DNA from: Pelotomaculum schinkii | GTDB lineage: Bacteria > Bacillota > Desulfotomaculia > Desulfotomaculales > Pelotomaculaceae | Length of the DNA stretch: 64,000 bases | Assembly (NCBI RefSeq): GCF_004369205.1 | Contig: NZ_QFGA01000001.1 | Location: 1,240,001 to 1,304,000, forward strand | Reading direction: 5' to 3' | Part shown: positions 15,539 through 52,485 of the stretch, one piece after another | Layout of the letters: the number at the start of each line of letters is the position of its first letter | How positions within the stretch are numbered: position 1 is the first letter of the stretch | Notes under the pieces: model-generated | The model's database searches: none | What the model was told of the DNA's origin: nothing | The model's input: only the letters and a program-made list of their open reading frames with translations | Position numbers and translations under genes: made by a program

Positions 15539-15793
15539 CTATGGGCTATCTCTATCCTCGGTTTCACCCGTATAAAACATATCCCTCCCGCACTGTGGAC
15601 AATCAACGGTAGGCATTACTCCAGGCTTTTCATCCCAAGCAAATTCATCAATTATCCACGCAGGGATCCATTCGCTAAACCCACAACTCTGACAACGATA
15701 CCTGTGATGTTCCCTGTCCTCTGGGCCGTCCTGAAATGGAATTACATCTTCGTCCCATATTTCGTCTGTTTTGCCCGCCATCCTCCACAACAC
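15539..15793 (-). CDS. Small zinc-ribbon protein at the 3-prime end of the IS91 element
   Basis: Up to 84 aa, acidic N-terminus (TDEIWDEDVIPFQDGPED), then two CxxC knuckles, CQSCG and CPQCG, spaced by about 30 residues as in a rubredoxin-like zinc ribbon. It overlaps the end of the transposase gene by about 118 nt in another frame. The likelier start is the ATG at 15779-15781 (MAGKTDE), since the longest frame begins with GTG. The last 30 residues of the transposase frame look like read-through noise over this ORF, so this frame is probably the genuine one here. It may be a passenger or accessory gene. Confidence 0.5.
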   Translation of the reverse strand: MLWRMAGKTDEIWDEDVIPFQDGPEDREHHRYRCQSCGFSEWIPAWIIDEFAWDEKPGVMPTVDCPQCGRDMFYTGETEDRDSP

Positions 15794-16997
15794 ACTCCTT
15801 CTTCATATCAGCAATGGCATCATAAATGTAGCCATAACGGGGATGCCAAATCACCCAGAGTTCCATCTCACATTTGCAACTTGGACACTTAAGGGGATTC
15901 TTACCAAAACTTTGTATCAATCGTTCTTTCCACGTCTGTTTTTTTGCCGCGGCCGGCTTCAGCTTACTTTTTATTCTCGTTTTCAGGTATTTATAAAGCC
16001 CTACTATTTTTTGAGCCAATTTGTTAAGATCACGACGGTAAATGCCATATCGCCTGACCATCTTGAAATGCTTTTTAGGTATATGCATAATCAGTTTCCC
16101 AATAAATTCGAGAGCATGCAGCTCTTCCTCTTTCCTTTGTTCATCCCTATGATCAATATACCAAAACTTTACCTTCTCACCATCATAGCCAATTATTCTA
16201 GACTCTGCTATTGCTGGCCGGGCTAAATACCGGCCTATATATTCCGCCGCTCCCTTGGCATCTCTCATCCTATTTTTAGCATGTACGTAAAAACCTTTTG
16301 GATATCTACGGTATAATTCATTTATTAGCTTCTTTATCCCCGGCTCACGTCCAAATCTCTTTTGAATAATTCCCAGCATTACTTTCTGCCAGCTTTTCCT
16401 TAAGTAATTGTAAGGAATATACCCCACGTCTTTCCAATTCTTAAACTTATCTATTGCACCTTCCGTTACCAAGGCATGAACGTGAGGATTAAAACCTAAA
16501 TTACGTCCAAAGGTATGAATTGTTGTAATTATACCAACTTCATAACCCATTTTTTTGGACTTGTTCCTGTACCAGTATTGAATTACCTCTGCAACTCCGT
16601 CGCTCAGATCTTTTAGCAGTTCTCTATGCCAATAAAACTTACCCCTTAATTCTTGGGGAATAGAAAACACCGTGTGGCGATGCCCTACATCTATAATCCT
16701 TTCAACCTGTTTGTTTACCCAATTATCTATATAAATCTTACCGCATCGATTACAAAACCGGCTCTTACATGAAAATCCTACAACCCTTTGATGCTTGCCA
16801 CATTCCGGGCAAATATACTTAGCATAGCCGTACCGTGGGTCACCACACTTTAACATCTTTTCAACAGATTCTATGACACTCTCAACTAGATCTTTGGGAA
16901 TCTTTTGCAAATTAGTTTTTTTAAATTCTTCCCAGTGGTCAGCAAAGATCTGCTTGATTTTAATTGTCTCTATCTGCTCTCTACCATTTGCTTCCAT
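15675..16997 (-). CDS. IS91-family transposase (zinc-binding domain plus Y2 HUH nuclease)
   Basis: The 440-aa protein has an N-terminal zinc domain (KYICPECGKHQ and CKSRFCNRCGK, about 65-90), the HUH motif NPHVHALVTEG (about 185), and the two catalytic tyrosines in AAEYIGRYLARP (Y-x3-Y, about 268). A second CxxC pair, CPSCKCEMEL, lies near the C-terminus. These define rolling-circle transposases that nick single-stranded DNA through 5-prime phosphotyrosine. The C-terminal stretch after DMKKECVV looks unlike the family and overlaps the zinc-ribbon ORF, so a frameshift near 15,790 that removed the native stop is possible. ATG start with a weak ribosome binding site. Confidence 0.92.
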   Translation of the reverse strand: MEANGREQIETIKIKQIFADHWEEFKKTNLQKIPKDLVESVIESVEKMLKCGDPRYGYAKYICPECGKHQRVVGFSCKSRFCNRCGKIYIDNWVNKQVERIIDVGHRHTVFSIPQELRGKFYWHRELLKDLSDGVAEVIQYWYRNKSKKMGYEVGIITTIHTFGRNLGFNPHVHALVTEGAIDKFKNWKDVGYIPYNYLRKSWQKVMLGIIQKRFGREPGIKKLINELYRRYPKGFYVHAKNRMRDAKGAAEYIGRYLARPAIAESRIIGYDGEKVKFWYIDHRDEQRKEEELHALEFIGKLIMHIPKKHFKMVRRYGIYRRDLNKLAQKIVGLYKYLKTRIKSKLKPAAAKKQTWKERLIQSFGKNPLKCPSCKCEMELWVIWHPRYGYIYDAIADMKKECVVEDGGQNRRNMGRRCNSISGRPRGQGTSQVSLSELWV

Positions 16998-17315: not shown

Positions 17316-18728
17316 CTAATCGATGCCCAACAGGTATTTATGGATGGATCTGGCCGCGGTGCGCCCCGCGCCCATGGCCAGGATGACCGTGGCGGCGCCG
17401 GTAACCACGTCGCCGCCGGCGTAAACCCCCGGCTTGGAGGTAGCGCAGGTTTCCGGGTCGGCGGTGATATTGCCTCTCCTGTTGACCGCCAGGTCGGGCG
17501 TGGTCTTGGGAATCAGCGGGTTGGGCCCCGTGCCGATAGCCACCACCATCGTGTCCACCTCCAGGATGAATTCGGAGCCCTTAACCGGCACCGGGCTGCG
17601 CCGGCCGGAAGCGTCCGGCTCGCCTAACTCATAGCGCAGGCATTCCATACCGGTTACCCAGTAGTCATCGTTATAGAGGATCCTGGTCGGGTTGGTGAGG
17701 AATTGAAACTTAACGCCTTCTTCCTCGGCGTGCTCAACCTCTTCAAACCGCGCCGGCAGCTCCACCCTGGAGCGCCGGTAGACGATCCAGGACTCCTGCG
17801 CGCCCAGGCGCAGGGCCGTGCGCGCGGCGTCCATGGCCACGTTGCCGCCGCCCAATACGGCCACCCTTTTGCCGACAAAGATGGGGGTGTCTGTTTCCGG
17901 GAAGCGGTAAGCCTGCATCAAGTTGGAGCGGGTCAGAAACTCGTTGGCCGAGTACACCCCGCAGGCGTTTTCGCCGGGTATCCGCATAAAGTTGGGCAGG
18001 CCGGCGCCGGTACCGAGAAAGACAGCGTCATAGCCATTTTCCATCAGTTCATCGATAGTGGAAAACTTGCCGACGATAGCGTTGACCTGAATATCGACCC
18101 CCAACTTCTTGAGGTTGTCGATTTCCGCCTGGACGACTGACTTGGGCAGGCGGAACTCGGGAATGCCGTACATCAGCACGCCGCCCGCGATATGCAGGGC
18201 TTCAAAGATGGTGACCTTGTGGCCGAGCTTGGCCAGGTCGGCGGCGCAGGTCAGCCCGGCCGGACCGGACCCCACGATTGCCACCTTCTTGCCGGTGGAA
18301 GATGCTGTTGCCGGAAGCTTTACCCCGGCGGCCAGTTCCCGGTCAGCCACATAACGTTCAATCCGGCCGATAGCCACCGGCTCGTATTTCTTGCCCAGGG
18401 TGCAGTACTTTTCACACTGGTTTTCCTGGGGACAAACCCGCCCGCAAACTGCCGGCAAGGCGTTCGTTTCCTTGAGTTTTTGGGCACTCCCGGCAAAGTC
18501 CCGTTCGGCAACCTTTTTGATAAAAGCTGGGATGTCAATATCTACTGGACAGCCCTGCCGGCAGGGAGCGTTTTTGCACTGGATGCAGCGCTCCGCCTCG
18601 GCGATAACGGCTTCTTCGCTGTAGCCCAGGGCAACTTCGTTAAAGTTCCCGGCTCGAATCACGGGGTCCTGAGCCGGCATGGGGTTCTTTTGGGGGATAA
18701 TAGCTTTTTTTGCGTTTTCCGCAGCCAT
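17316..18728 (-). CDS. nfnB: NADPH-binding subunit of NADH-dependent ferredoxin:NADP oxidoreductase (NfnB / SudA)
   Basis: The 470-aa flavoprotein of the GltD/NfnB family has an N-terminal Fe-S domain with CIQCKNAPCRQGCPVDIDIP (about 48-67) and CGRVCPQENQCEKYC (about 95-109), an FAD-binding motif GSGPAGLTCAADLAKLG (about 152), an NADP-binding motif GGGNVAMDAARTALRLGA (about 290) and a second FAD contact GVYAGGDVVTGAATV. With NfnA it bifurcates electrons between NADPH, NADH and ferredoxin. It shares a TAATG overlap with nfnA, and the pair ends the folate operon, so its job is probably to supply NADPH for FolD or recycle it. The homologous sulfide dehydrogenase SudAB is an older name for the same complex. 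Confidence 0.9.
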   Translation of the reverse strand: MAAENAKKAIIPQKNPMPAQDPVIRAGNFNEVALGYSEEAVIAEAERCIQCKNAPCRQGCPVDIDIPAFIKKVAERDFAGSAQKLKETNALPAVCGRVCPQENQCEKYCTLGKKYEPVAIGRIERYVADRELAAGVKLPATASSTGKKVAIVGSGPAGLTCAADLAKLGHKVTIFEALHIAGGVLMYGIPEFRLPKSVVQAEIDNLKKLGVDIQVNAIVGKFSTIDELMENGYDAVFLGTGAGLPNFMRIPGENACGVYSANEFLTRSNLMQAYRFPETDTPIFVGKRVAVLGGGNVAMDAARTALRLGAQESWIVYRRSRVELPARFEEVEHAEEEGVKFQFLTNPTRILYNDDYWVTGMECLRYELGEPDASGRRSPVPVKGSEFILEVDTMVVAIGTGPNPLIPKTTPDLAVNRRGNITADPETCATSKPGVYAGGDVVTGAATVILAMGAGRTAARSIHKYLLGID

Positions 18729-19591
18729 TACTCTTCACCCCCGCATCTGCACTGATGATCATGCCTGGGCCCTTTTTCTTCATACAGGTCCAGGGAAACT
18801 TTTTCCTGCGTTTTATATACTGCGGAGCGGCGGGCCAATTCTATAAAATCCACCTCGTGCCCGTCAAATTCAGGGCCGTCAACACAGGTGAACCTGGTCT
18901 CGCCGCCCACGGTCACCCGGCAGCAGCCACACATGCCTGTGCCGTCAACCATCAGGGTGTTGATGCTGACCACGGTCTTGACACCATATCTCCTGGTCAG
19001 GTCGGACACCGCCCGCATCATGGGCAGGGGCCCGATGGCGAGACACAGGTCAATTCCTTTGTCTTCAATGATTTCCTTGAGTAAGTCGGTCACGAAGCCC
19101 TTGCGCCCGTAGGAGCCGTCGTCGGTGGCCGCCAATAGTTCGTCCGATACGGCCCTCATGCGATCTTCCCAGAAAATGAGGTCTTTGGTCCTGGCCCCGA
19201 TGATGCTGATAATTTCATTTCCGGCTTCTTTAAGCGCCCTGGCAATGGGGTAAACGGGAGCGACTCCCACTCCGCCGCCGACGCAGGCCACCCGGCCGTA
19301 ATTCTGAATATGGGACGGGACGCCCAGCGGGCCGACAAAGTCCTTCAGGCAGTCTCCCGCCTCAAATGTGCCCAGCTCTTTGGTGGTCCTGCCCACTTCC
19401 TGGAAAACACAGGTAATGGTCCCTTCAGCCCGGTCAAAATCCGCTATGGTTACGGGTATCCGCTCACCTTCTTCATGGACACGCAGGATAACGAACTGAC
19501 CAGCCAACGCTTTTGCGGCTACCAACGGGGCCTGGATCTTAATTAGTTTGATGGAAGCTCCCAGCTCTTCTTTTTCAATAATTTCGTACAT
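18728..19591 (-). CDS. nfnA: NADH/ferredoxin-side subunit NfnA (SudB / dihydroorotate dehydrogenase electron-transfer-like)
   Basis: The 287-aa protein has an FAD-binding beta-barrel (about 10-100), an NAD-binding Rossmann domain with CVGGGVGVAPVYPIARAL (about 107) and a C-terminal [2Fe-2S] site MCGCCRVTVGGETRFTCVDGP-type with four Cys (MCGCC and later TCVDGP). The start MYEIIEKEEL at 19591 is preferred over GTG at 19600 because AGAAGAG then lies 8 nt upstream. It is 20 nt downstream of fchA and overlaps nfnB by one base. Confidence 0.9.
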   Translation of the reverse strand: MYEIIEKEELGASIKLIKIQAPLVAAKALAGQFVILRVHEEGERIPVTIADFDRAEGTITCVFQEVGRTTKELGTFEAGDCLKDFVGPLGVPSHIQNYGRVACVGGGVGVAPVYPIARALKEAGNEIISIIGARTKDLIFWEDRMRAVSDELLAATDDGSYGRKGFVTDLLKEIIEDKGIDLCLAIGPLPMMRAVSDLTRRYGVKTVVSINTLMVDGTGMCGCCRVTVGGETRFTCVDGPEFDGHEVDFIELARRSAVYKTQEKVSLDLYEEKGPRHDHQCRCGGEE

Positions 19592-19611
19592 CTTAATCAC
19601 TCTTCTTTATA

Positions 19612-20247
19612 TTATCCCTTCATTCTTTCTTTTACCACCGCTACAGCTTGTTCTTTCAACCGGCGGGCCTCTCCGGCGATTCTTTCCTTCTCTTCCAGGG
19701 CCTGTGACGCGAACCCCGCATCGCTGACCATAGGCAGGTTGATCTCGACATTTAAAAGAACTGCATGTACCGCGGCCTCGCACACATAGGCGGCAACTCC
19801 GGCGTCGCTGATGGCCATTTTATTGCCGATCCTGGATAACTGGGCAGTAATCGCCAGCGCTTCCAGTAATGTCACGGCAATCTCAAGCGGAGTCTCGGTT
19901 GCGCCTCGCAAGGCCTTCTGGAGAGCCTCTTCACGCTTGTCCTTTTCCTCGGTTGTACCCTTTGGCAGACGATAGGCGGCCATAAAACTGTCAAAGGCCG
20001 CTATATCATCTTCCATTAATTTTTCCAGTCTGGCCATAGTAAAGTAAGCCCTGCCGGTAATATCCTTAATCTCAGTTGCGACAGCCGCATACTGGGACTT
20101 GCCGTAGGTAAGGTTGCCTACCATGGCCGCCATGCTCACACCCAATGCGCCCACCAGGGCAGAAACACTGCCTCCCCCCGGGGTCGGGGCGTCAGAAGCC
20201 GCGGCGGCCAGTACTTTCCTGAATGAACAGTCAAACATGCCACTCAT
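19612..20247 (-). CDS. fchA: Methenyl-THF cyclohydrolase, FchA type
   Basis: The 211-aa protein of the formiminotransferase-cyclodeaminase fold has the signature DAPTPGGGSVSALVGALGVS (20-39) and TYGKSQY. FchA converts formyl-THF to methenyl-THF in acetogens. FolD, encoded immediately upstream, can often do this too, so the step is duplicated here. ATG start with AGGAGG 7 nt upstream; 64 nt after folD and 20 nt before nfnA. Confidence 0.9.
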   Translation of the reverse strand: MSGMFDCSFRKVLAAAASDAPTPGGGSVSALVGALGVSMAAMVGNLTYGKSQYAAVATEIKDITGRAYFTMARLEKLMEDDIAAFDSFMAAYRLPKGTTEEKDKREEALQKALRGATETPLEIAVTLLEALAITAQLSRIGNKMAISDAGVAAYVCEAAVHAVLLNVEINLPMVSDAGFASQALEEKERIAGEARRLKEQAVAVVKERMKG

Positions 20248-20311: not shown

Positions 20312-21166
20312 TTAATGTCTTTTCTTGCTGAGCTTGATCGCCTTAAGCAGGTTTTTTATAATCAACGCCGTGGTAAGACTGCCTACGCCACCTGGGACAG
20401 GGGTAATGGCGCCGGCTACCGGCAGGACGTTGTCGAAATCGACATCTCCGCAGATGCCGCCGTCCTCCATTTCGTTGATGCCGACGTCTACCACAATGGC
20501 GCCGGGTTTAACCATATCAGCCGTGATCATCCTGGCAACACCTGCGGCGGCGATCAGTATATCAGCCTGCCGGGTGTGGTACGCCAGGTCGCGGGTCCTG
20601 GTATGACAGATGGTTACCGTAGCATTCTGATTCAGAAGCATATAAATGAGAGGTTTACCAACCGACTCTCCCCGCCCGACCAGGACAGCATGTTTACCTT
20701 CGATGGGGAGTCCGTTGCGCACCATTAATTCAATGCAGCTCTGTGGCGTGGAAGGAAATAGTCCCTCATTATTGCTGAGATTGTAAGCGCGGTTGAGGGG
20801 GTGTACGCCATCCACATCCTTTAAGGGTGAGACGGCCTCAAGAATTCTCTGCTTGTTCATCCTCTTCGGCAGCGGCAGCATGATCATAATCCCGTGGACA
20901 GAATTATCCATATTAAGCCTTTTGATGACCTCGACGACTTCGTCCTCATCCCCGGCGTCTTTAAAGGAGAACGCTTCAAAAAGAGCGCCGGCGTTGCTGC
21001 AGGCTTTTTCAATAGAACGGGTATATATTACCGAAGCAGGATCATCTCCGGCTAGAATGACCGCTAATTTGGGGTTAAGTCCCTCTTCCTTCAGGCTCGC
21101 TATCTCCGCCTTATTCTCCCCCCGGACTATAACTGCGACGGCTTTACCGTCGATAATCTTTGACAT
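20312..21166 (-). CDS. folD: Bifunctional methylene-THF dehydrogenase / methenyl-THF cyclohydrolase
   Basis: The 284-aa FolD interconverts methylene-, methenyl- and formyl-THF, normally with NADP(H). Motifs: SVIYTRSIEKAC with the catalytic-region Tyr and Lys (family YVxxKxKAC), HGIMIMLPLPKRMN, DVDGVHPLN, and the nucleotide-binding VLVGRGESVGKPLIYMLL, ending with PVPGGVGSLTTALI. The YTRSIEKAC box replaces the usual YVRNKxKAC, but the Tyr and Lys are kept. ATG start, AAGGAGG 12 nt upstream. It lies between metF and fchA in the folate operon. Confidence 0.95.
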   Translation of the reverse strand: MSKIIDGKAVAVIVRGENKAEIASLKEEGLNPKLAVILAGDDPASVIYTRSIEKACSNAGALFEAFSFKDAGDEDEVVEVIKRLNMDNSVHGIMIMLPLPKRMNKQRILEAVSPLKDVDGVHPLNRAYNLSNNEGLFPSTPQSCIELMVRNGLPIEGKHAVLVGRGESVGKPLIYMLLNQNATVTICHTRTRDLAYHTRQADILIAAAGVARMITADMVKPGAIVVDVGINEMEDGGICGDVDFDNVLPVAGAITPVPGGVGSLTTALIIKNLLKAIKLSKKRH

Positions 21167-21297: not shown

Positions 21298-22230
21298 TTA
21301 ATCCAACACAACCTCCGGCCGCGGGTATAGGCCGGCCTGTTTTACAATCTCGGGAACAATATCTTCCCAGGCTATAGCCATGATATGGACACCATGCACG
21401 CCCTTGATATTTTCCCTGATGTATTTGATCTGCTCGATACAGACAGCCACTCCCTCGCTTGGGGGGTCAGCCGCATTTTTTAGCCTGTCCACCAGGGCGT
21501 CCGGCACAATCATCCCGGCTACCTGTGTTTGCATGAATTTAGCCGCCCGCCAACTTTTCAGAGGGATTACTCCGGCCAAAATATGAGCCCTTTGGTCCAG
21601 GCCTCTTGCCCGGACCAGCTCCATAAAGCGCTCAAAGCGCTCCATATCAAAGACACCCTGGGTTTGGATAAATTGGGCTCCCGCCTTAATCTTCTTCTCC
21701 AGCCGGTCAACCCTGTATTCAAAAGGGTCTGCAAAGGGATTGGCCACCGCGCCGATGAAAAACCTTGGCTCGTATTCTTTAATCTCTTCACCGCAAAAGA
21801 ACTTCTTTTCGTCCCGCATTCTGCTCATCAGGTTAACCAGCTGAATAGAATCCAGATCATAGACGTTCTTTGCCGTAGGGTGGTTGCCAAATTGCTGGTG
21901 GTCTCCGGATATACAGAGCAAGTTCCGTATGCCAAGGCTGTAAGCTCCCAGCAGGTCGGACTGGATGGCAATACGGTTCCTGTCACGACAGGTCATCTGC
22001 GCCACCGGCTCCAGAGCGTTGGCGAGGAGATGCACACCGGCGGCGATACTGGAGAGCCGGACAATTGCGGTCTGGTTGTCGGTGATATTGGCAGCGTCCA
22101 CGAAATCTTTCAAGATTTGCGCGGTATATTTTAGACCATGCGCGCCGGCATGCTTCGGTGGCCCGATTTCAGTGGTGACAGCAAAGTGTCCGCCTTCCAG
22201 TACGGCCTGCAGCTTGCTTAAATATTTCAC
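21298..22230 (-). CDS. metF: Methylenetetrahydrofolate reductase, MetF subunit
   Basis: The 310-aa FMN/FAD TIM-barrel enzyme reduces methylene-THF to methyl-THF. Visible features: VTTEIGPPKHA at the N-terminus with the catalytic-region Glu, CRDRNRIAIQSDLLGA, LCISGDHQQFG, and FIQTQGVFDMERFERFM. It lacks the long C-terminal domain of eukaryotic enzymes, as is usual in bacteria. It overlaps metV by 4 nt (ATGA), so the two subunits are translationally coupled and should form the MetVF complex. Confidence 0.95.
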   Translation of the reverse strand: MKYLSKLQAVLEGGHFAVTTEIGPPKHAGAHGLKYTAQILKDFVDAANITDNQTAIVRLSSIAAGVHLLANALEPVAQMTCRDRNRIAIQSDLLGAYSLGIRNLLCISGDHQQFGNHPTAKNVYDLDSIQLVNLMSRMRDEKKFFCGEEIKEYEPRFFIGAVANPFADPFEYRVDRLEKKIKAGAQFIQTQGVFDMERFERFMELVRARGLDQRAHILAGVIPLKSWRAAKFMQTQVAGMIVPDALVDRLKNAADPPSEGVAVCIEQIKYIRENIKGVHGVHIMAIAWEDIVPEIVKQAGLYPRPEVVLD

Positions 22231-22898
22231 CTTGCCATCAAATCCTCTCTCAAAGCCTTTCGTGGCCCCCCGTCCCTGGCTTTCGACCAGTCCTTCAGCG
22301 GCTGGACGGCGGTCAAGTCCTGCAGCCTGCCCAGCGCCTTCATGCGGTCATAAATCAGCTGCCAGGCACATGCCACGTCTTTATCTATTTCACACCTGCC
22401 ATGTTGCGAACCGCCGCAGGGGCCGTTCAGGATGCTTTTGGGGCAGCGGATAACGGGACAAATCCCGCCGGTCCGGTGCAGGATGCAGTCTCCGCATAGT
22501 CCGCATTTTTCATCCCACCTGCCGTGTTCTGTCGCTCCCCCGGCAAAAAGGGTATCCTGAGCGGGTACCACCCATTTATCCGGGTATTTCTCAGCCAGGT
22601 ACTGCACGCCAACCCCACAGGCAAGTGAAATAATAGCATCCGCCTCTCCCACCAGCCCGTCCAGTGGGGTTAGAAACTCGGGGTCGCATTGCCTGGTAGC
22701 TGTGTAAGTCGAGGTTGCCAGCGGCTTTCCGGCCAGTTTCCTCATAATCCGCAGGGCAGAAGCCAGTATTTCTGTCTCTTTCTCACCGCCGGACAGACAC
22801 ACGGTCACACATCCGGCACAGCCGACCAGCAGCACCTTTTCACAATCTTCAACCATAGCCGCGATGTCTTTTATATTCTTTTGCCGGGCTATTATCAC
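22227..22898 (-). CDS. metV: MetV, zinc/Fe-S partner subunit of methylene-THF reductase
   Basis: The 223-aa protein matches the MTHFR C-terminal/MetV family with a dense cysteine array: GCAGCVTVC (26-34), CGLCGDCILHRTGGICPVIRC (with CGLCGDC, then CPVIRC), NGPCGG and GRCEI. MetV binds Fe-S clusters and/or zinc and links MetF to its electron donor in acetogens such as Moorella. It starts 90 nt after the GltD/MvhD-like gene and overlaps metF. Confidence 0.92.
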   Translation of the reverse strand: MIIARQKNIKDIAAMVEDCEKVLLVGCAGCVTVCLSGGEKETEILASALRIMRKLAGKPLATSTYTATRQCDPEFLTPLDGLVGEADAIISLACGVGVQYLAEKYPDKWVVPAQDTLFAGGATEHGRWDEKCGLCGDCILHRTGGICPVIRCPKSILNGPCGGSQHGRCEIDKDVACAWQLIYDRMKALGRLQDLTAVQPLKDWSKARDGGPRKALREDLMAR

Positions 22899-22988: not shown

Positions 22989-24983
22989 TTATTTATAAGC
23001 TTCATTTAACAGCTGGAGTTTCTGGTAGAACGTTTTCAGTAGAGTAACCATATCCTCATCTTCTTCCGGCAGGCAGTAATAAAGCCGCTCCGGAGCTAAA
23101 CCAATAGCCGCCATCAATCCTTTGGCCCGCGCCAGCAGTCCTTTTAAAATTCCATCCCCGCCATAGTGACGGCTGGAGTTTTCCCGGCAGCCCAGGACCG
23201 CAACCCCGGCAGCGCCGTTTTCAAACGCGCTGAGCACCCACTCCAGCTGCAAAGCGCTTACAGTGGGCACCCTGATCATAACCGCCTTTGGATCAATTGA
23301 TTTCAATACATCTATACTGTTTTCCTGCCCGGTAAATATCACCAACGGGTCTTTGCCCTGCAGGCCTGCAAGCGCTTCTTTTATCTTATGTTCATATAAA
23401 TTGTCTACAGTTATAGCGCAGGCGGGGCAGTACGCGGCGCATATCCCACAGGACTGACAGCCTTCCACAGGCATACGGGCCGATCCCTCCACCAGCGGCA
23501 CTTCGTAAGGACAAACTCTCAGGCAGGTCAGACAGGCAACACATTTATCGGCAAGCACCTGCGCCCCAAGACCACAGCTTAGACAGCGGCCGGCCTCAAT
23601 AATTGCCGTTTTCTCATCCAATCCCAGCTCATACGGCTCAAAATTCTTAACTCTTAACGCGGCCGGCAATACCGGCATTTCTCCGCGGTTACGGTGTGGC
23701 ACCCGGCCGGCCACTGCGCCGGGAAGTATGCCGATGGCATCCTGTTCGGTATCCGCGGTTACCCGCCTGGCGCCATGCAAGTATTGATTTACCGCCCTGG
23801 CCGCCCTGTGTCCGGAAGCAACCGCGGCTATCGCCAGGCCCGGGCCGCTAACCACCTCTCCACAGGTAAACACGCCCTCAACACTGGTATTTAGAAAAGT
23901 TCCGTCTGCAATCACAAAACCTTTAGGACTAACTTCCAATCCGCTGCCGTTTAAAAATTCCTGGTCCGGACCCTGCCCGACAGCCAGGATGACTGTGTCA
24001 CAGGGCAGGCTTAGGAAGGCATCAGGCTCATAAGCAGGATTAAACCTTCCCGAGGAATCGAACACGGATTTAACCTTCTGAGCCTTAAGGCCTGTGATCC
24101 GGCCTTCCTCAACGACAACTTCGACCGGCCCGTAACCGTTGACAATGCCGACCCCTTCTTCCAGCGCCTCTTCAACCTCCCAGGTATGCGCCGGCATCTC
24201 TTCTCGAAATTCCATACAAATTGCGGTTACCTGCCCGGCCCCCAGCCGGACCGCTGTGCGGGCCACGTCCATCGCTACGTCCCCCCCGCCGATGACCAGT
24301 ACGCGGCTGCCGACAGCCGGTTTCCCGCCCAGGTTTACCTGCCGCATAAACGGCAGCGCTTTTAATACGTCCGGATGGTCAGCTCCCGGCAGAGGGAGTC
24401 CTTTGCTTTCCTGCAGCCCCGCGGCGATAACTACAGCGTCGTATTCTTCTTTGAGCTCATTTAAGGTGATATCCCTGCCCACCTCAACCCCGGTATGGAC
24501 TGTTATCCCGGTGGCCAGTATAGCCTCCACGTCCTTCCGGAGGTTTTCTCTCGGAAGCCGGTAAACAGGCAGTGAGGTTAAAAAATGCCCGCCCGGAGCA
24601 TGGTTTCTTTCATACACCACGACCGTATGGCCAAGATTGGCGAGGTCGTAGGCCGCTGTCAGACCACTTGGCCCGGAACCAACGATCGCTATATTTTTGC
24701 CGGTGTTCCGGGCGCGAGGTATTGCCGCGCAATTTGTTCCAGCCTTCTCAACAGCAAACCTTTTCAGGTTGCGGATTGATAAAGAGGCGTCCACATCGCC
24801 CCGCCGGCAGTGGTCTTCGCAAGGATGGGGACACACCCAGGCGCATACGGACGGAAAGGGGTTGTTGGCACGGATCAAACGGTAGGCTTCACTGTAATCC
24901 TGCCTGGCGATGGCAGCCAGATAGCCGCGCACGTCAGTTTTAACCGGACAGGCATGGGTGCATGGCGGCAATAGCTCGTTCAT
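22989..24983 (-). CDS. GltD-like FAD oxidoreductase fused to two [4Fe-4S] clusters and an MvhD-like C-terminus
   Basis: About 664 aa. Order (residues counted from the start at 24983): N-terminal Fe-S domain CTHACPVKTDVRGYL and CAWVCPHPCEDHC (8-60); FAD site GSGPSGLTAAYDLANLG (about 101); NAD(P) site GGGDVAMDVARTAVRLGAG (about 232); 2x[4Fe-4S] ferredoxin with CVACLTCLRVCPYEVP and CQSCGICAAYCPACAI (about 480-520); and an MvhD/FlpD-like module (about 545-664) with VLGCRENSSRHYGG where MvhD has GCHPGDCHY. The MvhD cysteines for its [2Fe-2S] cluster are mostly absent. The start MNELLPPC at 24983 is chosen because GGAGGT lies about 10 nt upstream; the longer in-frame ATG at 25016 has none. It is next to metVF and probably carries electrons to or from methylene-THF reductase, in place of the HdrCBA-MvhD set known from Moorella. 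Confidence 0.88.
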   Translation of the reverse strand: MNELLPPCTHACPVKTDVRGYLAAIARQDYSEAYRLIRANNPFPSVCAWVCPHPCEDHCRRGDVDASLSIRNLKRFAVEKAGTNCAAIPRARNTGKNIAIVGSGPSGLTAAYDLANLGHTVVVYERNHAPGGHFLTSLPVYRLPRENLRKDVEAILATGITVHTGVEVGRDITLNELKEEYDAVVIAAGLQESKGLPLPGADHPDVLKALPFMRQVNLGGKPAVGSRVLVIGGGDVAMDVARTAVRLGAGQVTAICMEFREEMPAHTWEVEEALEEGVGIVNGYGPVEVVVEEGRITGLKAQKVKSVFDSSGRFNPAYEPDAFLSLPCDTVILAVGQGPDQEFLNGSGLEVSPKGFVIADGTFLNTSVEGVFTCGEVVSGPGLAIAAVASGHRAARAVNQYLHGARRVTADTEQDAIGILPGAVAGRVPHRNRGEMPVLPAALRVKNFEPYELGLDEKTAIIEAGRCLSCGLGAQVLADKCVACLTCLRVCPYEVPLVEGSARMPVEGCQSCGICAAYCPACAITVDNLYEHKIKEALAGLQGKDPLVIFTGQENSIDVLKSIDPKAVMIRVPTVSALQLEWVLSAFENGAAGVAVLGCRENSSRHYGGDGILKGLLARAKGLMAAIGLAPERLYYCLPEEDEDMVTLLKTFYQKLQLLNEAYK

Positions 24984-25032
24984 TCCAACATACCTCCAAG
25001 ACCTCTTTGTTTCCATTCAGTCATCTACTCAG

Positions 25033-25558: not shown

Positions 25559-27319
25559 CTAGAAGAGACCCAGGACCTTGCCGGTATCCACATCGACGTC
25601 GATCCTCCGGTAGGCCGGGTCAGAGCCGGTACCCGGCATCAGGCTGATCGAACCGGTCATAGGACAAAGGAACTTGGCTCCGGCAAAGACCAGCACGTCG
25701 CGGACAGGCAGCAACCACCCCTTGGGCACGCCCTTTATATTGGGATCGTGGGAAAGACTCAGGTGGGTCTTGACCATCATGGTGGCAAAATCGGCATAAG
25801 CCGGGTCAGACTCAAAGCGCCTGGCTTTGGCTTCTGCTTCCGGGGTCCACGAAGCCCCATCGGCGCCGTATACCTCTCTGGCGATTCTATCAACCCTCTG
25901 CCTGAGCGGCATCTCCAGCGGGTAGAGGTGCTTGAAATCAACGCGGTCAGCACAGGCGTCGATAACCGCGTCGGCCAGTTCCAGCGCCCCTTCGCCGCCT
26001 TTAAGCCAGTGTTCGGATAAGGCGCAGCGGGCGCCGGCCTGTTCAGCGTAACGGCGGACCATGGCGATTTCCTCCCTGGTATCGGTATGGAAGGCGTTGA
26101 TGCAAACAACCGGGTTGATCCCCGCTTTTTTCACCGTGGCGATATGATGCAACAGGTTGGGGATACCCTTTTCCAGTAGTCCCAGGTTTTCTTTCCGGTA
26201 TTCCTCAGGCAGTGGACGGCCGGGCACAACCTTCGGCCCGCCTCCGTGCATCTTCAGGGCCCGGATGGTAGCCGTGATTACAGATACATTGGGGGTGAGC
26301 CCGCTAAAACGGCACTTGACGTTCCAGAATTTTTCAAAGCCGATATCGGCGGCAAAGCCGCTTTCGGTAACGTTGTAGTCGAACATCTTCAAAGCGATAC
26401 GGTCGGCAATGATGGACGATTGGCCAATGGCGATATTGGCAAAGGGGCCCGCGTGCACCAGGACAGGCTGGTACTCAACCGTGCTCATGAGGGTCGGGTT
26501 GATGGCGTTTCTCATAAAGGCCGTCATGGCCCCGGCCACTTCCAGGTCGGAGGTGGTCACCGGTTGGCCTTTTTTATCGTAAGCGACGATGATTTTACCG
26601 ATACGCTCCCGCAAGTCTTTTAAGTTAGTGGCGACAGCAAGAATGGCCATCAATTCGGAACTGACCGCTATGCCGAATTTCGACTCCATCATGAAGCCGT
26701 CCATCCTGCCGCCGATCCCCATGATAATCTTGCGCAGGCCCTGAGCGCAGAAATCGATAACCCAGCCCATTTCCACATTGGTGGGATCAATGTCAAGCCT
26801 TCTTAAGTTGCGTTTGGCCAGTTCGGCGTCATTGTAGTTGCGCTCGTGCTGCATCCGTGCGTTAAGCGCAACCATGCACAGGTTGTGGGCATTCATGATG
26901 TCGTTGATGTCACCTGTCAGTCCCAGGGAAAATTCGGTCATGGGAATAGCCAGGGCGTTGCCTCCGCCGGCTGCAGTCCCTTTAATGTTCATGGTGGGAC
27001 CGCCAGAGGGCTGGCGAATGGCTGCGCCAACGTTCATGCCGCGCTTGCCCAGTCCTTCCACCAAACCTATGGTGGTGGTTGTTTTGCCCTCACCCAAAGG
27101 CGTGGGGGTAATGGCGGTAACGTTGATGTATTTACCGTCCGGCCGCTCCTTTAAACGTTCCATGATTTTCATAAAATCCAGCTTGCAAATCCTGCCGTAA
27201 GGGATTATTTCATCCCTTTCCAAACCCAGTCGCTCTTGCCAAACGGCCGCTGTCGGCATATTTTTTTCGGCCAGCTCGGCAATTTGAAAATCTTTTAGTT
27301 GAGTCGCGTCAAACGGCAT
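25559..27319 (-). CDS. fhs: Formate--tetrahydrofolate ligase
   Basis: The 586-aa formyl-THF synthetase makes 10-formyl-THF from formate, THF and ATP (or runs in reverse to make ATP in syntrophs). P-loop-like [19 protein letters not shown] (about 71-89), conserved [20 protein letters not shown] (20 residues, about 98-117) and the C-terminal [20 protein letters not shown]. Length is standard (about 555-590). ATG start with AAGGGGG 9 nt upstream. It opens the C1 cluster, though a 575-nt repeat-rich gap separates it from the rest, so it may have its own transcript. Confidence 0.97.
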
Positions 27320-47508: not shown

Positions 47509-47680
47509 CTTTCAGTCCCCTTGTTTTCGGGATCGGCACTGCAACAAACGTAGGCTTTATGGTGGAACCTCATGTATTTATACTCTCAGTCCCCTGATAT
47601 AGAAGGGTATCCTGTTTGCAGTTCCTTTAACCTTTTCTCCTTTCAGTCCCCTGATATGTTATCGGGTTAAGCAGTGCAAC
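47509..47680 (-). CRISPR. Degenerate CRISPR remnant, three repeat-like units
   Basis: R1 47509-47545 (CTTTCAGTCCCCT ... GCACTGCAAC, 37 nt); R2 from 47583 (CTCTCAGTCCCCTGATAT ... GTTTGCAGTTC); R3 47640-47680 (CTTTCAGTCCCCTGATATG ... GCAGTGCAAC). R1 and R3 share 12-13 nt at one end and nearly 10 at the other, with a 4-nt indel between. R1 to R2 leaves a 37-nt spacer-like gap; R2 to R3 leaves only about 17. On the minus strand the units read GTTGCA...GGGGACTGAAAG, the usual form of CRISPR repeats ending in GAAAG. R3 overlaps the last codons of the jetA frame. Not a working array. Confidence 0.5.
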
Positions 47681-48702
47681 GGTGGCAGTCATGACACCTG
47701 AACAGAGAAAAGTGGCCTCCAGGCCGGCCAGGTATTTGAGTATTTCCAACAGCTGCCCTTCCAGGTCCTTGCTGGAATTAAGAATATACTTCAGCTGCAG
47801 GAAGGAGGCGTTGGCGTACTGCACGTTGCGCCTGTCGATCTCCTCCAATATTTCATCCATGCCCGTGTAGGTCTGGCGGATGTAATCCAGCCGGTGGTAT
47901 ATTTCCTTTTCCGCCTCGGCCTGACTGGCCTGGCGGCCCCTCTCGACTTCCTGGGCGGCAGTCGCCGTCACCCAGGCCGGGTCGTGGTACCACTTGTTAA
48001 TCCGTTTGATGATCTTGGGCCGGTAGCGAAAGACGTTGTCGGACGTCTTCAGGCGGTGGTAGCTCCTGTCCAAAATCTCCTGCTTGTAGTCTTCAAAGTG
48101 TATTTTTAAGATATCCTTGGGTTGTTTTTCGGCCAGCACCCGCTCTATATAGCGTTTAATATTGTGGTTTAAAGACTTTAAGCCGTTTAAGAGTTGCTCG
48201 GTCTGTTCAAAGGCCTTTTCCAGGGCCAGGCTGGCCTGCCGTTCCACATCCTCAGCGTAAAGAAGGGTGTAGGTGGCATAGACAAAGCCCTGGTACTCAG
48301 CCTGGCGGTTCTTGCGGACTTTGTCCAATGTATCAAGAATTGTAATCGCGTAATCGTTAATATTGACATACTGCTTGTAATTGTTATAGGTTTCGGTTGA
48401 AAGCCAGCCGCAGGACTCCAGTTTGCGCAGCACGAAAGCCGCCCGGTCGCGGAAACCGGCGGGGTTGTCCAGTGATTCATCCCAGATTTCGTCGTCAAGC
48501 GCCCCGGCGAACTGCCCTTCTTCTTCCCAATTTTCTTCTATGTAGTCTACAATTACGTCTATCACCACATCCCGCTCCATACCCAGGCTGGTCAGCAGGT
48601 ACTGGTCATAAATTTTAAACAGGATCCCGCGGCGTAGTGCTCTTTTAAAGGGCTGGCCAGGACGCTGAAAAACCGGTCCGGTATAATGGAAAAGAGGTTC
48701 AT
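47627..48702 (-). pseudogene. jetA: Wadjet JetA-like gene broken by a 2-nt insertion
   Basis: ATG at 48700-48702 starts MNLFSIIPDRFFSVLASPLK-EHYA, the typical JetA N-terminus. The frame then shifts near 48628-48633, and the rest continues in the neighbouring frame from ILFKIYDQYLLTSLGMERDV to the stop at 47627: about 350 residues, largely helical, with long coiled-coil parts. JetA is the kleisin-like subunit of the Wadjet anti-plasmid condensin. jetB, jetC and jetD are absent. A second fragment at 54140-54197 lacks two bases at the break and is in frame, so this copy carries an insertion. Its C-terminus runs into a CRISPR-like repeat and may be replaced. Confidence 0.75.
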
Positions 48703-48970
48703 AGTAGTACCGCCTGAATATAGAATTGATAGGCCGGTGTGATAGCTGCATAAAGCAAAGACCTGCGTTATATTTCTCGCAGGTATCAACAAATTCCTCT
48801 ATCTTTCTACTAAGTCCAAGTTCGTAGTTATCCGGTATTTTAGATGATGTCCAGACCAAGGCATTTTTATCCAGTGTCTTTACAAAGCTCCATACCTGCA
48901 GCAAGTGCTGTCTTTCCCCTTGCCGTTTGGACAGCCCAGAAATGCGTATACTAAACTGACAGGATGTAAT
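48703..48970 (-). pseudogene. Relic of a P-loop ATPase upstream of jetA
   Basis: Two frames carry protein-like pieces. One has VSLVYAFLGCPNGKGK, a Walker-A-like loop (about 48955-48915). The other has LDKNALVWTSSKIPDNYELG and EFVDTCEKYNAGLCFMQLSH (48904-48720). This pattern recalls Zot/FtsK-like packaging ATPases, but identification is weak. The second piece is fused in frame with the downstream two thirds of jetA, which makes a misleading 425-codon open frame. Confidence 0.35.
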
Positions 48971-49031
48971 AGTTGCAAAAGAATTAAGTTTATTTTGACT
49001 TACTGTTCATGCTGCCGGCCAATTCTGACCA

Positions 49032-49040
49032 TGTTATAAT
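49032..49040 (+). promoter_or_regulatory. Extended -10 promoter of the HEPN/MNT operon
   Basis: TG-T-TATAAT at 49032-49040, an extended -10, lies 32 nt before the MNT start. No good -35 is seen. Confidence 0.45.
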
Positions 49041-49072
49041 TAATTAAGTATGAAATACAGGAAGTGCCAACT

Positions 49073-49522
49073 ATGAAACCCACTGCAAAAACAATTGAAA
49101 TTGAAAAGCTGTTACCCCGGTTAAAAGAAATTTCCCGGCAATTTCCTGCGGTTGCGGCGGCATACCTCTTTGGGTCTTACGCCGGCGGACGCCCCACACC
49201 ACTCAGTGATATAGATATAGGTATCATAATGGCCCGGGAATTACCGGATATGGAGTCCTTCCGCATTGAAATGAGCTTGGCGGGAGAACTGGAAAAGATA
49301 TTCGAAACCGATAATATCGACCTGGTGGTTCTGAACAAAGCGCCTCTCCCCATTCAATACAACGCCACCTGCGGCAAGCTGCTTTTCAGCAACGATGAAG
49401 AAAAAAGATCCGATTTCGTAGAATATGCGAGAAAATACTACATCGACTGCCTGCCTATCTACCGTGAATACCGTGAGGAGTTTTTTAAAAGACTGCAGGA
49501 GGGGAGAAAGACGGATGGTTAA
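49073..49522 (+). CDS. MNT-type nucleotidyltransferase antitoxin
   Basis: The 149-aa minimal nucleotidyltransferase of the MNT/MntA family has GSYAGGRPTPLSDIDIGI (GSx10DxD) with a third Asp in NIDLVVL. In HEPN-MNT (type VII) systems this protein transfers AMP to the HEPN toxin and silences it. ATG at 49073 is chosen because AGGAAG is then 9 nt upstream; GTG at 49064 would be too close. The stop overlaps the HEPN start by 8 nt. Confidence 0.88.
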   Translation: MKPTAKTIEIEKLLPRLKEISRQFPAVAAAYLFGSYAGGRPTPLSDIDIGIIMARELPDMESFRIEMSLAGELEKIFETDNIDLVVLNKAPLPIQYNATCGKLLFSNDEEKRSDFVEYARKYYIDCLPIYREYREEFFKRLQEGRKTDG

Positions 49523-49931
49523 TTTTCAAAAGGTAGATAAGCAGTTAAAAATGCTTGACAATTACCTGTCTATTTTAAGCCAACTCAGCAATATAAATCA
49601 TAATGAATTTATTAATGACCCACGTAATTACGGCAGCGCAGAAAGGTTCCTGCAGTTAGCGATAGAAACCACCTTGAATATCGGCAACCACATCATTTCC
49701 ATCTATAATTTTGAAGCTCCCAAAGATTACTCGGATATATTTATTATACTTGGAAATCATGGTGTTCTACCAAAAGATTTCGCCAAAGAATTAACCAACA
49801 TGGCTCGTTTTCGCAACCGCCTGGTACATATATATTGGGAAATTGATACCAGTAGGGTTTATACTATAATACAAACAAAACTGAAGGACTTTGAGGATTT
49901 CAAGAAATATATTCTAGCTTTTCTTGCCTAG
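49515..49931 (+). CDS. HEPN-family RNase toxin (HepT)
   Basis: The 138-aa all-helical HEPN protein has the RNase motif R-x4-H in FRNRLVHIYWEID. The start ATG at 49515 has GGAGGGG upstream inside the MNT gene and gives MVNFQKVDKQLKML. HEPN toxins cut RNA when not modified by their MNT partner. The motif and lengths look intact, so this pair may be active, unlike much of the surrounding defence debris. Confidence 0.88.
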   Translation: MVNFQKVDKQLKMLDNYLSILSQLSNINHNEFINDPRNYGSAERFLQLAIETTLNIGNHIISIYNFEAPKDYSDIFIILGNHGVLPKDFAKELTNMARFRNRLVHIYWEIDTSRVYTIIQTKLKDFEDFKKYILAFLA

Positions 49932-49989
49932 CGTTTGTCAACGGCATTTATATTCTAATATAATGTTGTGTAAAGGTTGTATTTAACTG

Positions 49990-50069
49990 ATAGCATGGCC
50001 AGCCTGCAGCATGTGGGCAGAGGTGCGGGGTAAGTCCTACGTGCACCCGTGACACAAAGGTCATGCTAT
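49990..50069 (+). ncRNA. Candidate structured RNA: three-helix junction
   Basis: A closing helix of 11 bp, 49990-50000 with 50059-50069 (one G-U), encloses two hairpins: GCCTGC/GTGGGC (50002-50007 with 50013-50018, loop AGCAT) and GGTGC/GCACC (50022-50026 with 50043-50047), the second with an inner GGG/CCT stem and TAAGT loop. Total 80 nt. It lies 58 nt past the HEPN gene and touches the end of cas6, which converges. No T-tract follows on either strand, so it is more than a simple terminator. Strand and function are unknown; the second hairpin slightly resembles a group II intron substructure. Confidence 0.4.
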
Positions 50070-51049
50070 ATTTCTTTATACCCAAGCTTCAAGTGCTCAT
50101 ACTTCCCCATCCCAAACACCGCCCCCTTGCCCACATGCACCAGTTCCCCCAGCCGCAAGAGGGGCAGAAACTCGTCCAATTCACCTTCATACTCCACCCG
50201 GCCCACCAGGCCGCCCATGTTCACCTTGTTGTCCTGGCGGGAAGAATAGCGCTCCCAGTTCACCCAACGGGTACCGTCACTAACCAGCCGGACTTCCGCC
50301 GCCCGTTCAATCAGCCCGGTAAAGTCAAGCTCCAGTTCCCAGCCATGGTGAAAATAGGCCAGTGACGAGAGCCTGCGTAAAAGGCTCCGTATGAGCATGT
50401 GAAACTCAATATGGTGGACGAAATTTTCTTCAAACTTAATCCTGGTGATGGTCAAAAAGTCCAAACCAAGGCGAGTTAAGGCTATAACTTTATCCTTCTG
50501 ACGTAAAAGGTCAGCTGAGTCAAACTGGATGGCCAGATTGGTATTTCTCACAAGCTGGTCTTCCGCCTGGTACACCAATTGGCTTTCCTCGTTGTTCAAA
50601 CCAATTGCCCGAATTTCGGCCAGCCGGTATTTCCTCCTCATTTTCCCGATCCCCAATTCGCCCAGTTCACGAAAGGCAACAATAAAATAAGGAAGGTAAT
50701 TGATCGCCCTGCCGATCAGGATTAGATTGAAGTCCAGCTTCTCGCCGGGCCTATATTCGGTTTTGGTTTCCAGCGGGGGTTCGAGGATAAAGGGCCGGGG
50801 GATACTTTCGTAATTGCGGAGGGCTTCAGAACCGGGGGGAGGCGCGGTTTCAAAGATATAAGCATAGGGACAGCTTGTCCTTAAGAGGCAGTTGTTGCAA
50901 TTGGCCTCCCTGAGTGAACAAGAGATCCTCCGAAAGGCGTTGCCGAAACCGCCTCTTAAGGTGGAACCCTTGTAAGGGGGCAGAAGCAAACCTTTCTCCC
51001 CAGCCTCTATGGTGAGTCGGTATTTAGCTATTGTAAAATATTTGGACAT
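50066..51049 (-). CDS. cas6: CRISPR-associated endoribonuclease Cas6 (RAMP family)
   Basis: The 327-aa Cas6-like RAMP processes pre-crRNA. It has a PYKGSTLRGGFGNAFRR N-terminal segment, a four-cysteine patch CSLREANCNNCLLRTSC (about 44-60) of the COG5551 type, and a C-terminal glycine-rich loop HVGKGAVFGMGKYEHL (about 306-321) that binds the repeat RNA. ATG start with GGAG 8 nt upstream. No other cas gene is in the window, and the only array is the remnant about 2.5 kb away, so it is an orphan that may serve an array elsewhere. Confidence 0.88.
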   Translation of the reverse strand: MSKYFTIAKYRLTIEAGEKGLLLPPYKGSTLRGGFGNAFRRISCSLREANCNNCLLRTSCPYAYIFETAPPPGSEALRNYESIPRPFILEPPLETKTEYRPGEKLDFNLILIGRAINYLPYFIVAFRELGELGIGKMRRKYRLAEIRAIGLNNEESQLVYQAEDQLVRNTNLAIQFDSADLLRQKDKVIALTRLGLDFLTITRIKFEENFVHHIEFHMLIRSLLRRLSSLAYFHHGWELELDFTGLIERAAEVRLVSDGTRWVNWERYSSRQDNKVNMGGLVGRVEYEGELDEFLPLLRLGELVHVGKGAVFGMGKYEHLKLGYKEI

Positions 51050-51208
51050 CGCTTTTTCTCCATTAACGGTTTCTCATACCGCAAGCGGCATCAGAATATG
51101 AAATCCATATCAAGCAATAAAAAAATAACCATACAGATATAATTTCTCCATAATGGTTATTATTTCTACATGTAGCGAGAATTCCCTATTGATTATATGC
51201 TTATTTTT

Positions 51209-51545
51209 TCATCCGTTTTGTTTGTATTTCAGCCTGTAGTCGAAATAGGTTTCACACTTGTTTGGACTGCCTGGATACACGGACGCCATGGCCTTTTCCA
51301 TTTCATCCGCATTTTTCAGTCCTTCATTCCTGGCGCCTACGGCTGATTTCTCGAAAATGGAGTTTCTCCCATCCTGCACGGTTTTATCGTCCAACCCGTC
51401 AATCTGGGGATACTGTAGGGTTATTTGATTTTATCGGTCTCAGAAGCTTCTTTCACTGTTGTTATGGAAATTGCATTCTCTTTTCCGCTTTCAAGTTGAA
51501 TTATTCCGCTTTGCCTGTCCCACCGTACTTTGAGTCCAAAGAGGA
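51209..51545 (-). pseudogene. Fragment of a stalk-PdaC-RsiV gene
   Basis: Minus-strand frames read LKVRWDRQSGIIQLESGKEN, AISITTVKEASETDKIK, then after a shift TVQDGRNSIFEKSAVGARNE, MEKAMASVYPGSPNKCETYF and stop at KYKQNG. These match residues about 110-245 of the proteins at 45303 and 60443. Homology ends sharply near 51213 and 51541. Both ends of the gene are missing and one frameshift lies near 51,430. Confidence 0.85.
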
Positions 51546-51577
51546 CAGACAAGGTTTATTCTAAGGATAATTTCGTC

Positions 51578-51635
51578 TTGACATGATATTTCATATGTAA
51601 TATATTTATTACAGGTGAAATATTTTAGTATTTCA
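51578..51635 (+). promoter_or_regulatory. Sigma-A promoter overlapped by palindromic ArsR operator
   Basis: TTGACA (51578-51583), 17 nt, TATATT (51601-51606). Over it lies a perfect two-part palindrome: ATATTTCA-ta-TGTAAT (51586-51601) against ATTACA-gg-TGAAATAT (51608-51623), with a 6-nt centre. A second overlapping pair, TGAAATA (51616-51622) with TATTTCA (51629-51635), could be a further site. The palindrome covers the -10, so binding should repress. Confidence 0.75.
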
Positions 51636-51672
51636 CACCTTTCCAGAGAGGCCTATCCCGGCAGGCAACTAT

Positions 51673-52107
51673 TTGTTAGCAAGCCTGCTACGTCCCTGGG
51701 ATGTCGTTACAAAAAGGGGGAATCAGGAAATAAATGAAAATCATTTTAAACCAGCACCACCTTCCGGAGACGCTCTGATCAAAATGCTGGAGGCCCTGGC
51801 CAACCCGCACCGTCTACAGATTATTGCTTTGCTGACAGGCAGGCGCGTTCATGTCAGTCAACTCGCCCGTGAGGCCATGATAAGCCGGCCACTGCTGTAT
51901 ATGCATTTGAAGCGACTGGAGAATGCTGGAATGGTGACTAGTAAAATGGAATTGTCGGAGGATGGAAAAGCAATGAATTATTACGAAATAACACCGTTTG
52001 CACTCCACTTAAGTCCGGAGAGCATCGCTGAAGCGGTCAAAACGCTCACGATTAAAAAAACTGCCGGCGCCGCATCAGACGTTAACAATGAGGGGGATAA
52101 CAAATGA
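51673..52107 (+). CDS. ArsR/winged-helix transcriptional regulator
   Basis: 144 aa as drawn. Winged HTH at about 45-110: LANPHRLQIIALLTGRRVHV, SQLAREAMISRPLLYMHLKR, LENAGMVTS. No metal-binding cysteine is seen in the recognition helix (ArsR ELCVCDL is absent), so it does not look like a metal sensor. The start is doubtful: TTG at 51673 (with AGG nearby) is the only reasonable start in frame, while the best ribosome binding site (AAGGGGG, 51714) precedes a different frame. The operator upstream and the 4-nt overlap with the next gene suggest an autoregulated operon. Confidence 0.8.
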   Translation: MLASLLRPWDVVTKRGNQEINENHFKPAPPSGDALIKMLEALANPHRLQIIALLTGRRVHVSQLAREAMISRPLLYMHLKRLENAGMVTSKMELSEDGKAMNYYEITPFALHLSPESIAEAVKTLTIKKTAGAASDVNNEGDNK

Positions 52108-52394
52108 ATGAAGAAGTTATTTTCGGAATAGGCGGAATGGGATTTGTGCTTTTTATTCTATCGCTGATTACCATAGTGGCTGTAGTTGTGATATCGCAAG
52201 TACTAAAAACCTCACGGGCTAAGGCCGCGAGCATGGCTGAAATTGCCAGGGACGAGGCTTATCGCAAGCTGGCGGAAGAAGCAGTCAAAGTACAGCAGAA
52301 GATAGCTGAGGAGCAACAGAAGATAGTCAAGGATCTATCCGAGATGAAGGAGCGAATAAATGCGATGGAAAAGATGCTTCGTGAGGTCGGTTGA
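52104..52394 (+). CDS. Small membrane protein with cytoplasmic coiled coil
   Basis: The 96-aa protein has one span at about 12-34 (FVLFILSLITIVAVVVISQV) followed by a highly charged coiled coil (AKAASMAEIARDEAYRKLAE to MEKMLREV). It overlaps the ArsR gene by 4 nt (ATGA). Function unknown; similar ArsR plus short coiled-coil membrane protein pairs occur in Clostridia (recollection). It may sequester or signal to the regulator. Confidence 0.75.
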   Translation: MNEEVIFGIGGMGFVLFILSLITIVAVVVISQVLKTSRAKAASMAEIARDEAYRKLAEEAVKVQQKIAEEQQKIVKDLSEMKERINAMEKMLREVG

Positions 52395-52485
52395 AGTTTA
52401 CCAGGCGACAAAGCGGCTGCATAAACACCATATAGAGCAGTCCTCTATAAATCAGAGGCTGAATTAAAAAAGAAGGAGATAGAAA

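Follow-up and report, generated by a model that had tools for sequence, protein, structure and literature searches.

The physiological electron donor of the MetVF-type methylene-tetrahydrofolate (methylene-THF) reductases is an open question, on whose answer the ATP balance of acetogenesis depends (PMC8760232). Two described systems resemble the locus analysed here. In the RnfC2-MetVF system of Acetobacterium woodii (type III), the gene of an NADH-oxidising Fe-S flavoprotein lies directly before metV-metF, beside fchA and folD (PMC6925170, PMC8760232). The other, HdrCBA-MvhD-MetVF (type IV), is found in Sporomusa ovata and Moorella thermoacetica. The HdrA protein of M. thermoacetica includes a GltD domain and is reported to oxidise NADH using benzyl viologen, and MvhD of S. 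ovata binds MetF in pull-downs (PMC9430772). Given the latter result, the FlpD fold can serve as an interface to MetF or MetVF.

We analysed a window of 64,000 nucleotides of the Pelotomaculum schinkii genome (contig NZ_QFGA01000001.1, positions 1,240,001 to 1,304,000), in which a gene coding for a GltD-ferredoxin-FlpD fusion protein adjoins metV. As in A. woodii, the gene of a putatively NADH-oxidising Fe-S flavoprotein directly precedes metV-metF in the neighbourhood of fchA and folD. Nevertheless, the A. woodii input protein is RnfC-like, whereas that of the window combines a GltD-type module with a ferredoxin and an FlpD tail. RnfC_N matches in the genome sit elsewhere, away from metV, whose neighbour is the fusion gene. 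The resemblance to the type IV system is of another kind: the GltD module falls into a group with that of a Moorella HdrA, and the fold of the tail is that of MvhD. However, no HdrA core, HdrB or HdrC is encoded beside metVF, the NADH module and the MvhD fold are in one polypeptide, and the MvhD cysteines are lost. Searches of the window's genome returned no full match to HdrA, the best matches being short ferredoxin stretches, and no FlpD protein other than the fusion. The proposal of the first-pass annotation, that this architecture is distinct from HdrCBA-MvhD-MetVF, is thus borne out. We found no description of a GltD-ferredoxin-FlpD-MetVF unit in the open full-text literature, a search that subscription papers were mostly outside; one paper names a gltD in a figure legend on a Wood-Ljungdahl gene neighbourhood (PMC7325909).

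Genetic context of the fusion gene

The open reading frame of the fusion spans positions 22989-25016 of the minus strand (675 aa). Its likely start is the ATG at 24983, with a GGAGGT sequence eight bases upstream, and this is also the end coordinate given in the first-pass annotation. The resulting gene (22992..24983, minus strand) codes for a protein of 664 aa, composed of a GltD-type flavoprotein, a dicluster ferredoxin and a degenerate FlpD/MvhD tail according to Pfam and reading of the ORF.

All genes of the operon are on the minus strand, in the order fhs, fusion, metV, metF, folD, fchA, nfnA and nfnB, with successive intergenic gaps of 575, 93, -4, 131, 64, 11 and -1 bases. The first gene upstream of the fusion is an fhs-like ORF (formyl-THF synthetase, 25559..27319). 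Domain searches identified metV (DUF5981/MTHFR_C, 22227..22898) and metF (21298..22230). They are followed by a folD-like ORF (methylene-THF dehydrogenase, 20312..21166), an fchA-like ORF of the FTCD_C/cyclohydrolase family (19612..20247, Pfam 2.3e-61) and, also found by domain searches, a pair of genes resembling those of the NADH-dependent ferredoxin:NADP transhydrogenase, nfnA and nfnB (17316..19600). The fhs-like and folD-like ORFs, named from reading of their sequences, are conserved neighbours. A terminator-like hairpin follows nfnB at 17076-17059.

The operon harbours both metV and metF, in common with the type IV system, and MetV has every cysteine that is invariant among 50 MetV sequences. 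The MetVF-only enzymes (type II) have no dedicated donor subunit; here, the gene of a candidate for such a subunit, the fusion, adjoins metV. The operon thus encodes the methyl branch of the Wood-Ljungdahl pathway together with two candidates for the supply of electrons, of which Nfn would provide NADPH and the fusion would serve MetVF. Just downstream of its nfnAB end, on the minus strand, the window contains a gene for an IS91-type transposase (Y2_Tnp, Zn_Tnp_IS91; 15675-16997).

The GltD and ferredoxin modules

Three domains of the fusion passed the Pfam cut-offs, namely Pyr_redox_2 (8.5e-34), Fer4_20 (4.1e-19) and FlpD (9.4e-15); a Fer4_10 match (1.5e-4) was below its cut-off. The Pyr_redox_2 FAD/NAD(P)H module (23811..24695) matched the structures of NfnB, Stn, DPD and GltD proteins. 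The N-terminal Fer4_20 region (24741..24968), which contains C8, C12, C47, C51, C55 and C59, is truncated, as it covers profile positions 30-108 of 113. A second Fer4_20 stretch was found by Pfam behind the FAD domain (23574..23645); it corresponds to the segment NFEPYELGLDEKTAIIEAGRCLSC, which holds C467 and C470. In an alignment with the N-terminus of the NfnB protein from this operon, the segment scored 77, the maximum in 2000 shuffles being 52. Part of the GltD cluster domain, its N-terminal CxxC stretch, has therefore moved behind the FAD domain. By this alignment, C467 and C470 are the missing pair, and the set of eight GltD-type cluster cysteines is complete, albeit partly permuted. The dicluster ferredoxin (23418..23552) contributes C481, C484, C487 and C491 for one cluster motif, and C509, C512, C515 and C519 for the other. 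All sixteen cysteines are invariant in 17 orthologues.

With eight GltD-type and eight ferredoxin cysteines, up to four [4Fe-4S] clusters may form in the fusion protein, twice the number assumed in the first-pass annotation, which had counted two. The full-length model of the protein is only moderate (pLDDT 70), and its ferredoxin region is largely below 50.

With its Fer4_20 and Pyr_redox_2 domains and eight cluster cysteines, the fusion resembles the GltD/NfnB-type flavoproteins, including the NfnB, StnC-type and PRK12771 proteins, with which it has the FAD/NAD(P)H module in common. It scored 496 bits with PRK12771, below the cut-off of 516, and differs from these proteins by its FlpD tail and by its nucleotide site. 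Where the second Rossmann strand ends, the fusion carries a CxE-type motif, C256-M257-E258 (24210..24218), in place of the YRR of NfnB and other GltD proteins of the NADPH type. An acidic residue at this position is the usual mark of NADH specificity. E258 is invariant in the 17 orthologues, and a motif of the xxE type, mostly CLE, is present in all 57 rows of the clade of the fusion. The CxE rows, which include the 1490-aa HdrA of Moorella stamsii, form one group with a support of 96. A separate Dehalococcoidia lineage harbours YRR in the same ferredoxin-FlpD-metV-metF setting. The nucleotide used by the fusion is thus most likely NADH rather than NADPH, as indicated by one motif and by kinship with the Moorella HdrA. 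The first-pass annotation had left the nucleotide at NAD(P)H.

The FlpD-like tail

The tail (22992..23363) matched the FlpD family (PF02662) with 55.2 bits, well above the Pfam cut-off of 22.3, and shares fold and sequence family with MvhD, ElpC and FlpD. It differs from them in being fused to the GltD-ferredoxin part, rather than being a free subunit associated with HdrA, and in its cysteines. An AlphaFold2 model of the tail domain has a pLDDT of 87, and its top structural matches are MvhD/ElpC chains, with Z scores of 13.9-14.5, the next rows being below 10. MvhD/ElpC chains were also retrieved when a profile of the tails was compared with solved structures (E values of 1e-46 to 1e-36). The alignment behind both the domain model and this profile included canonical MvhDs. 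A phmmer search with the window tail alone also returned MvhD first (1.4e-4), and a full-length model built from orthologues alone has the same order of elements in the tail. The MvhD fold pattern proposed earlier for the C-terminal module is therefore supported by Pfam, AlphaFold2 and the fold search together. The Pfam, solved-structure profile and fold searches ruled out that the C-terminus belongs to another family.

As a canonical reference, we used 24 MvhD sequences from other genomes, which have five conserved Cys in the motifs CxxC, V[MP]C, GC and CHY. The residues of the window tail at these five columns are G, N, T, C and S. Hence, the loss of the MvhD cluster cysteines noticed in the first-pass annotation is confirmed by alignment, and the only canonical residue left is C599 (23187..23189), the cysteine of the GC motif in GCHPGDCHY. 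Judging by this alignment, the [2Fe-2S] ligand set is absent from the window tail, in which a single Cys would not suffice whichever four of the five bind. A non-canonical cysteine, C637 (23073..23075), is located where the fourth strand ends, and many members of the window's family share it. We considered that the ligands might be conserved at shifted positions, but the aligned tails offer no replacement set in the window beyond C599 and C637.

Selenocysteine was likewise rejected for the fusion, since the gene of the window contains no in-frame TGA and the TGA of canonical MvhDs replaces the GC cysteine. Canonical MvhD genes often have an in-frame TGA at that cysteine (GUHPGDCHY) and look like selenoprotein genes (loci L202-L204, L207, L210, L212-L214, L220, L221, L223, L225 and L230). 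The position of this TGA is that of C599, the sole canonical Cys kept in the window tail.

Proposed role of the fusion protein

We consider it reasonably probable that the fusion oxidises NADH as the input subunit of a methylene-THF reductase of the MetVF type, equivalent to RnfC2, with an FlpD tail that here only docks. In such an enzyme, NADH would reduce the FAD of the GltD module, and electrons would pass singly, first along the GltD-type [4Fe-4S] clusters, then along the pair in the ferredoxin, and enter MetV at its own [4Fe-4S] clusters. From there they would reach the flavin of MetF, and the reaction would run in the direction of methylene-THF reduction. The FlpD tail would be the contact surface to MetVF and, in the majority of family members, probably the carrier of an electron-relay cluster as well. 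As the tail ligands are gone in the clade of the window, the tail would be limited to docking there, and the ferredoxin clusters would have to deliver electrons directly.

A broader proposal, to which we give slightly less than even chances, is that these loci represent a fifth, unnamed type of MetVF enzyme. It would be defined by a GltD-ferredoxin-FlpD input subunit made of one polypeptide, with NADH-type and NADPH-type versions according to lineage. In the clade of the window, the FlpD domain would have turned from a relay into a cluster-free dock, with electrons going from the ferredoxin-type clusters to MetV directly. The conserved neighbourhood in two phyla of metV-metF and a flavoprotein of the NADH type, or of the NADPH type in another lineage, provides a testable answer to the question of the donor for such organisms. 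In addition, the natural series of FlpD domains with four, three, one or no cysteines in one family offers ready-made variants with which to find out whether electron transfer needs the MvhD fold or assembly alone does.

Cysteine loss and selection in the tail

The second Cys of the CxxC motif is absent from all fusions. The other four tail cysteines are retained in nearly all fusions of Dehalococcoidia and of Firmicutes outside the window's class, whereas in the latter class the third one is mostly gone too. Most relatives outside the window's clade have kept three or four of the five, and a tail cluster is thus possible in those relatives. The tails of the window's genus have retained the GC cysteine alone.

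In the tree of the GltD part, the three copies of the window's genus group with two copies of genome G011 and one of genome G020 in a single clade (SH-aLRT 98), which sits beside twelve copies that do not adjoin metVF. All five canonical tail cysteines are missing from one of the G011 copies (L068) and from that of G020 (L067), and the other G011 copy (L066) has two. The strongest loss is thus found in a clade that adjoins metVF rather than in disused copies. Cysteine-poor tails are also found in three unlinked copies of the same family (L009, L018 and L079).

Such losses might mean that the FlpD tail no longer has a function in the window's clade and is decaying, MetVF being served by the GltD-ferredoxin part by itself. 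All canonical cysteines but one are lost in the window tail, and when domains are compared within the window's genus, FlpD has the highest dN/dS ratio (0.32-0.33, vs 0.19-0.23 for the GltD part). In the G011b/G020 pair, with 0/5 cysteines, this ratio reaches 0.52, and the C-termini are shorter. However, a ratio of around 0.32 is well below 1, the tail reading frame is intact in three species of the window's genus, and the predicted fold is complete. The tail therefore appears to be constrained in this genus and more relaxed in the G011b/G020 pair. We regard decay as unlikely, although it is the best placed of the alternatives. Purifying selection on a tail without cluster ligands fits the docking role that we propose for the window's genus.

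Relation to electron-bifurcating flavoproteins

Another possibility is that the fusion is an electron-bifurcating subunit, whose GltD FAD, like that of NfnB, splits the electrons of NADH between MetVF and ferredoxin. The GltD module is homologous to the bifurcating NfnB and Stn-type proteins, MvhD normally partners the bifurcating flavin in HdrA (PMC12350162), and there is spare energy in the transfer of electrons from NADH to methylene-THF (PMC6895022). Nevertheless, in the linked loci no additional NAD(P)H/FAD subunit resembling NfnA or HydB is fused to, or encoded directly beside, the fusion and metV, even though nfnAB closes the operon of the window. Furthermore, T. phaeum, whose MetVF is HdrA-linked, showed no ferredoxin-stimulated NADH activity (PMC6895022). 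Bifurcation thus appears improbable, to a slightly greater degree than decay of the tail.

Distribution and synteny

Within the window's family, 18 of 25 genomes have an orthologue of the fusion; for its class, the count is about 35 of 113. Similar fusions are present in other Firmicutes and in Dehalococcoidia. A single scan of genome contigs yielded mostly other GltD proteins. A metV or metF gene lies on the same strand within 1.5 kb in 35 of 68 scored fusion loci, or 36 of 69 with the window, and many linked fusion genes overlap metV by 1 bp. By lineage, the linkage amounts to 20/52 for the CxE type and 15/16 for the YRR type among the 68 scored loci, the 15/16 YRR loci representing one Dehalococcoidia subfamily. 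In five Firmicutes loci, a methyltransferase-like gene is followed by the fusion, metV and metF, and three of these loci lie behind further acs-type genes, as named from reading of their sequences. Thus, the fusion beside metVF is a widespread family in two phyla, not a peculiarity of the window genome. The link to metVF drawn in the first-pass annotation is apparent both in the operon of the window and in this recurrent adjacency.

Two Dehalococcoidia loci are closely related to each other. One (L102, 3400-6900) harbours a broken metV-metF-fusion row, in which the start of metV runs into metF and a frame break precedes the FlpD tail; the row of the other (L287) is intact. Around fusion-metV-metF in the YRR-type loci of Dehalococcoidia (L296-L305, L320-L325), the same genes resembling response regulators and sensors (clusters c3 and c6) regularly recur. 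On the single contig of genome G010 (L019, L083; G010:C1:425126-427103), the fusion is encoded as two overlapping ORFs in different frames, which represents a frameshift or a sequencing error.

A single origin of all GltD-ferredoxin-FlpD fusions was rejected for the GltD part (p-AU 0.002). For the tails, the support was 77 and a grouping of MvhD with the YRR tails was not rejected, so that they may or may not share one origin. As a single GltD clade is rejected, either the combination arose twice or its input part was exchanged, in both cases beside metVF.

Most orthologues in the window's own class do not adjoin metVF, and some genomes of the class with an unlinked fusion also carry a canonical MvhD gene beside metV. 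With so many unlinked orthologues, the family may have other partners or a second role. Several of the unlinked genes (L079, L081, L082, L084 and L010) are divergent from a gene of the nitronate-monooxygenase family, identified by the Pfam NMO domain in L084 and L010 and by clustering in the others.

It might be argued on these grounds that the fusion is a general NADH:acceptor oxidoreductase, reducing for instance ferredoxin, that is found in the methyl-branch operon by chance and does not bind MetVF. Its gene is indeed far from metVF in many genomes of the class and in some other Firmicutes, including those with the divergent nitronate-monooxygenase-family gene. The recurrent, tight linkage with metV or metF in two phyla and in two GltD lineages makes chance a poor explanation. 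Moreover, among the genomes of the class that are at least 90% complete, none has the fusion but no metV: all 22 genomes with the fusion have metV, vs 43 of 58 without it (Fisher p 0.008, kinship ignored). We thus hold this explanation to be improbable, a little weaker still than bifurcation. The window tail might also bind a cluster through ligands that are non-canonical or shared, for which C599 and C637 from two protomers, or His/Ser, would come into question. In favour of this, the position of C637 at the C-terminal end of strand 4 resembles that of the canonical Cys that end strands 1-3, and C637 is retained together with C1, C4 and C5 in most unlinked copies of the window's family. Such a cluster is nevertheless very improbable, as only two cysteines in all are left in the window tail and the sister copies L068 and L067 lack C637 as well as the canonical five.

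Other genes of the window

Two genes of the minus strand lying near each other code for a Cas6-family protein (50066-51049) and a JetA (Wadjet) protein (47627-48904). No CRISPR-like repeat array was found at 48900-53000, near the Cas6-family gene. Also on the minus strand, the gene at 60443-62785 codes for a protein of 780 aa composed of a copper amine oxidase N-terminal domain, a PdaC/DUF3298 region and a full serpin domain.
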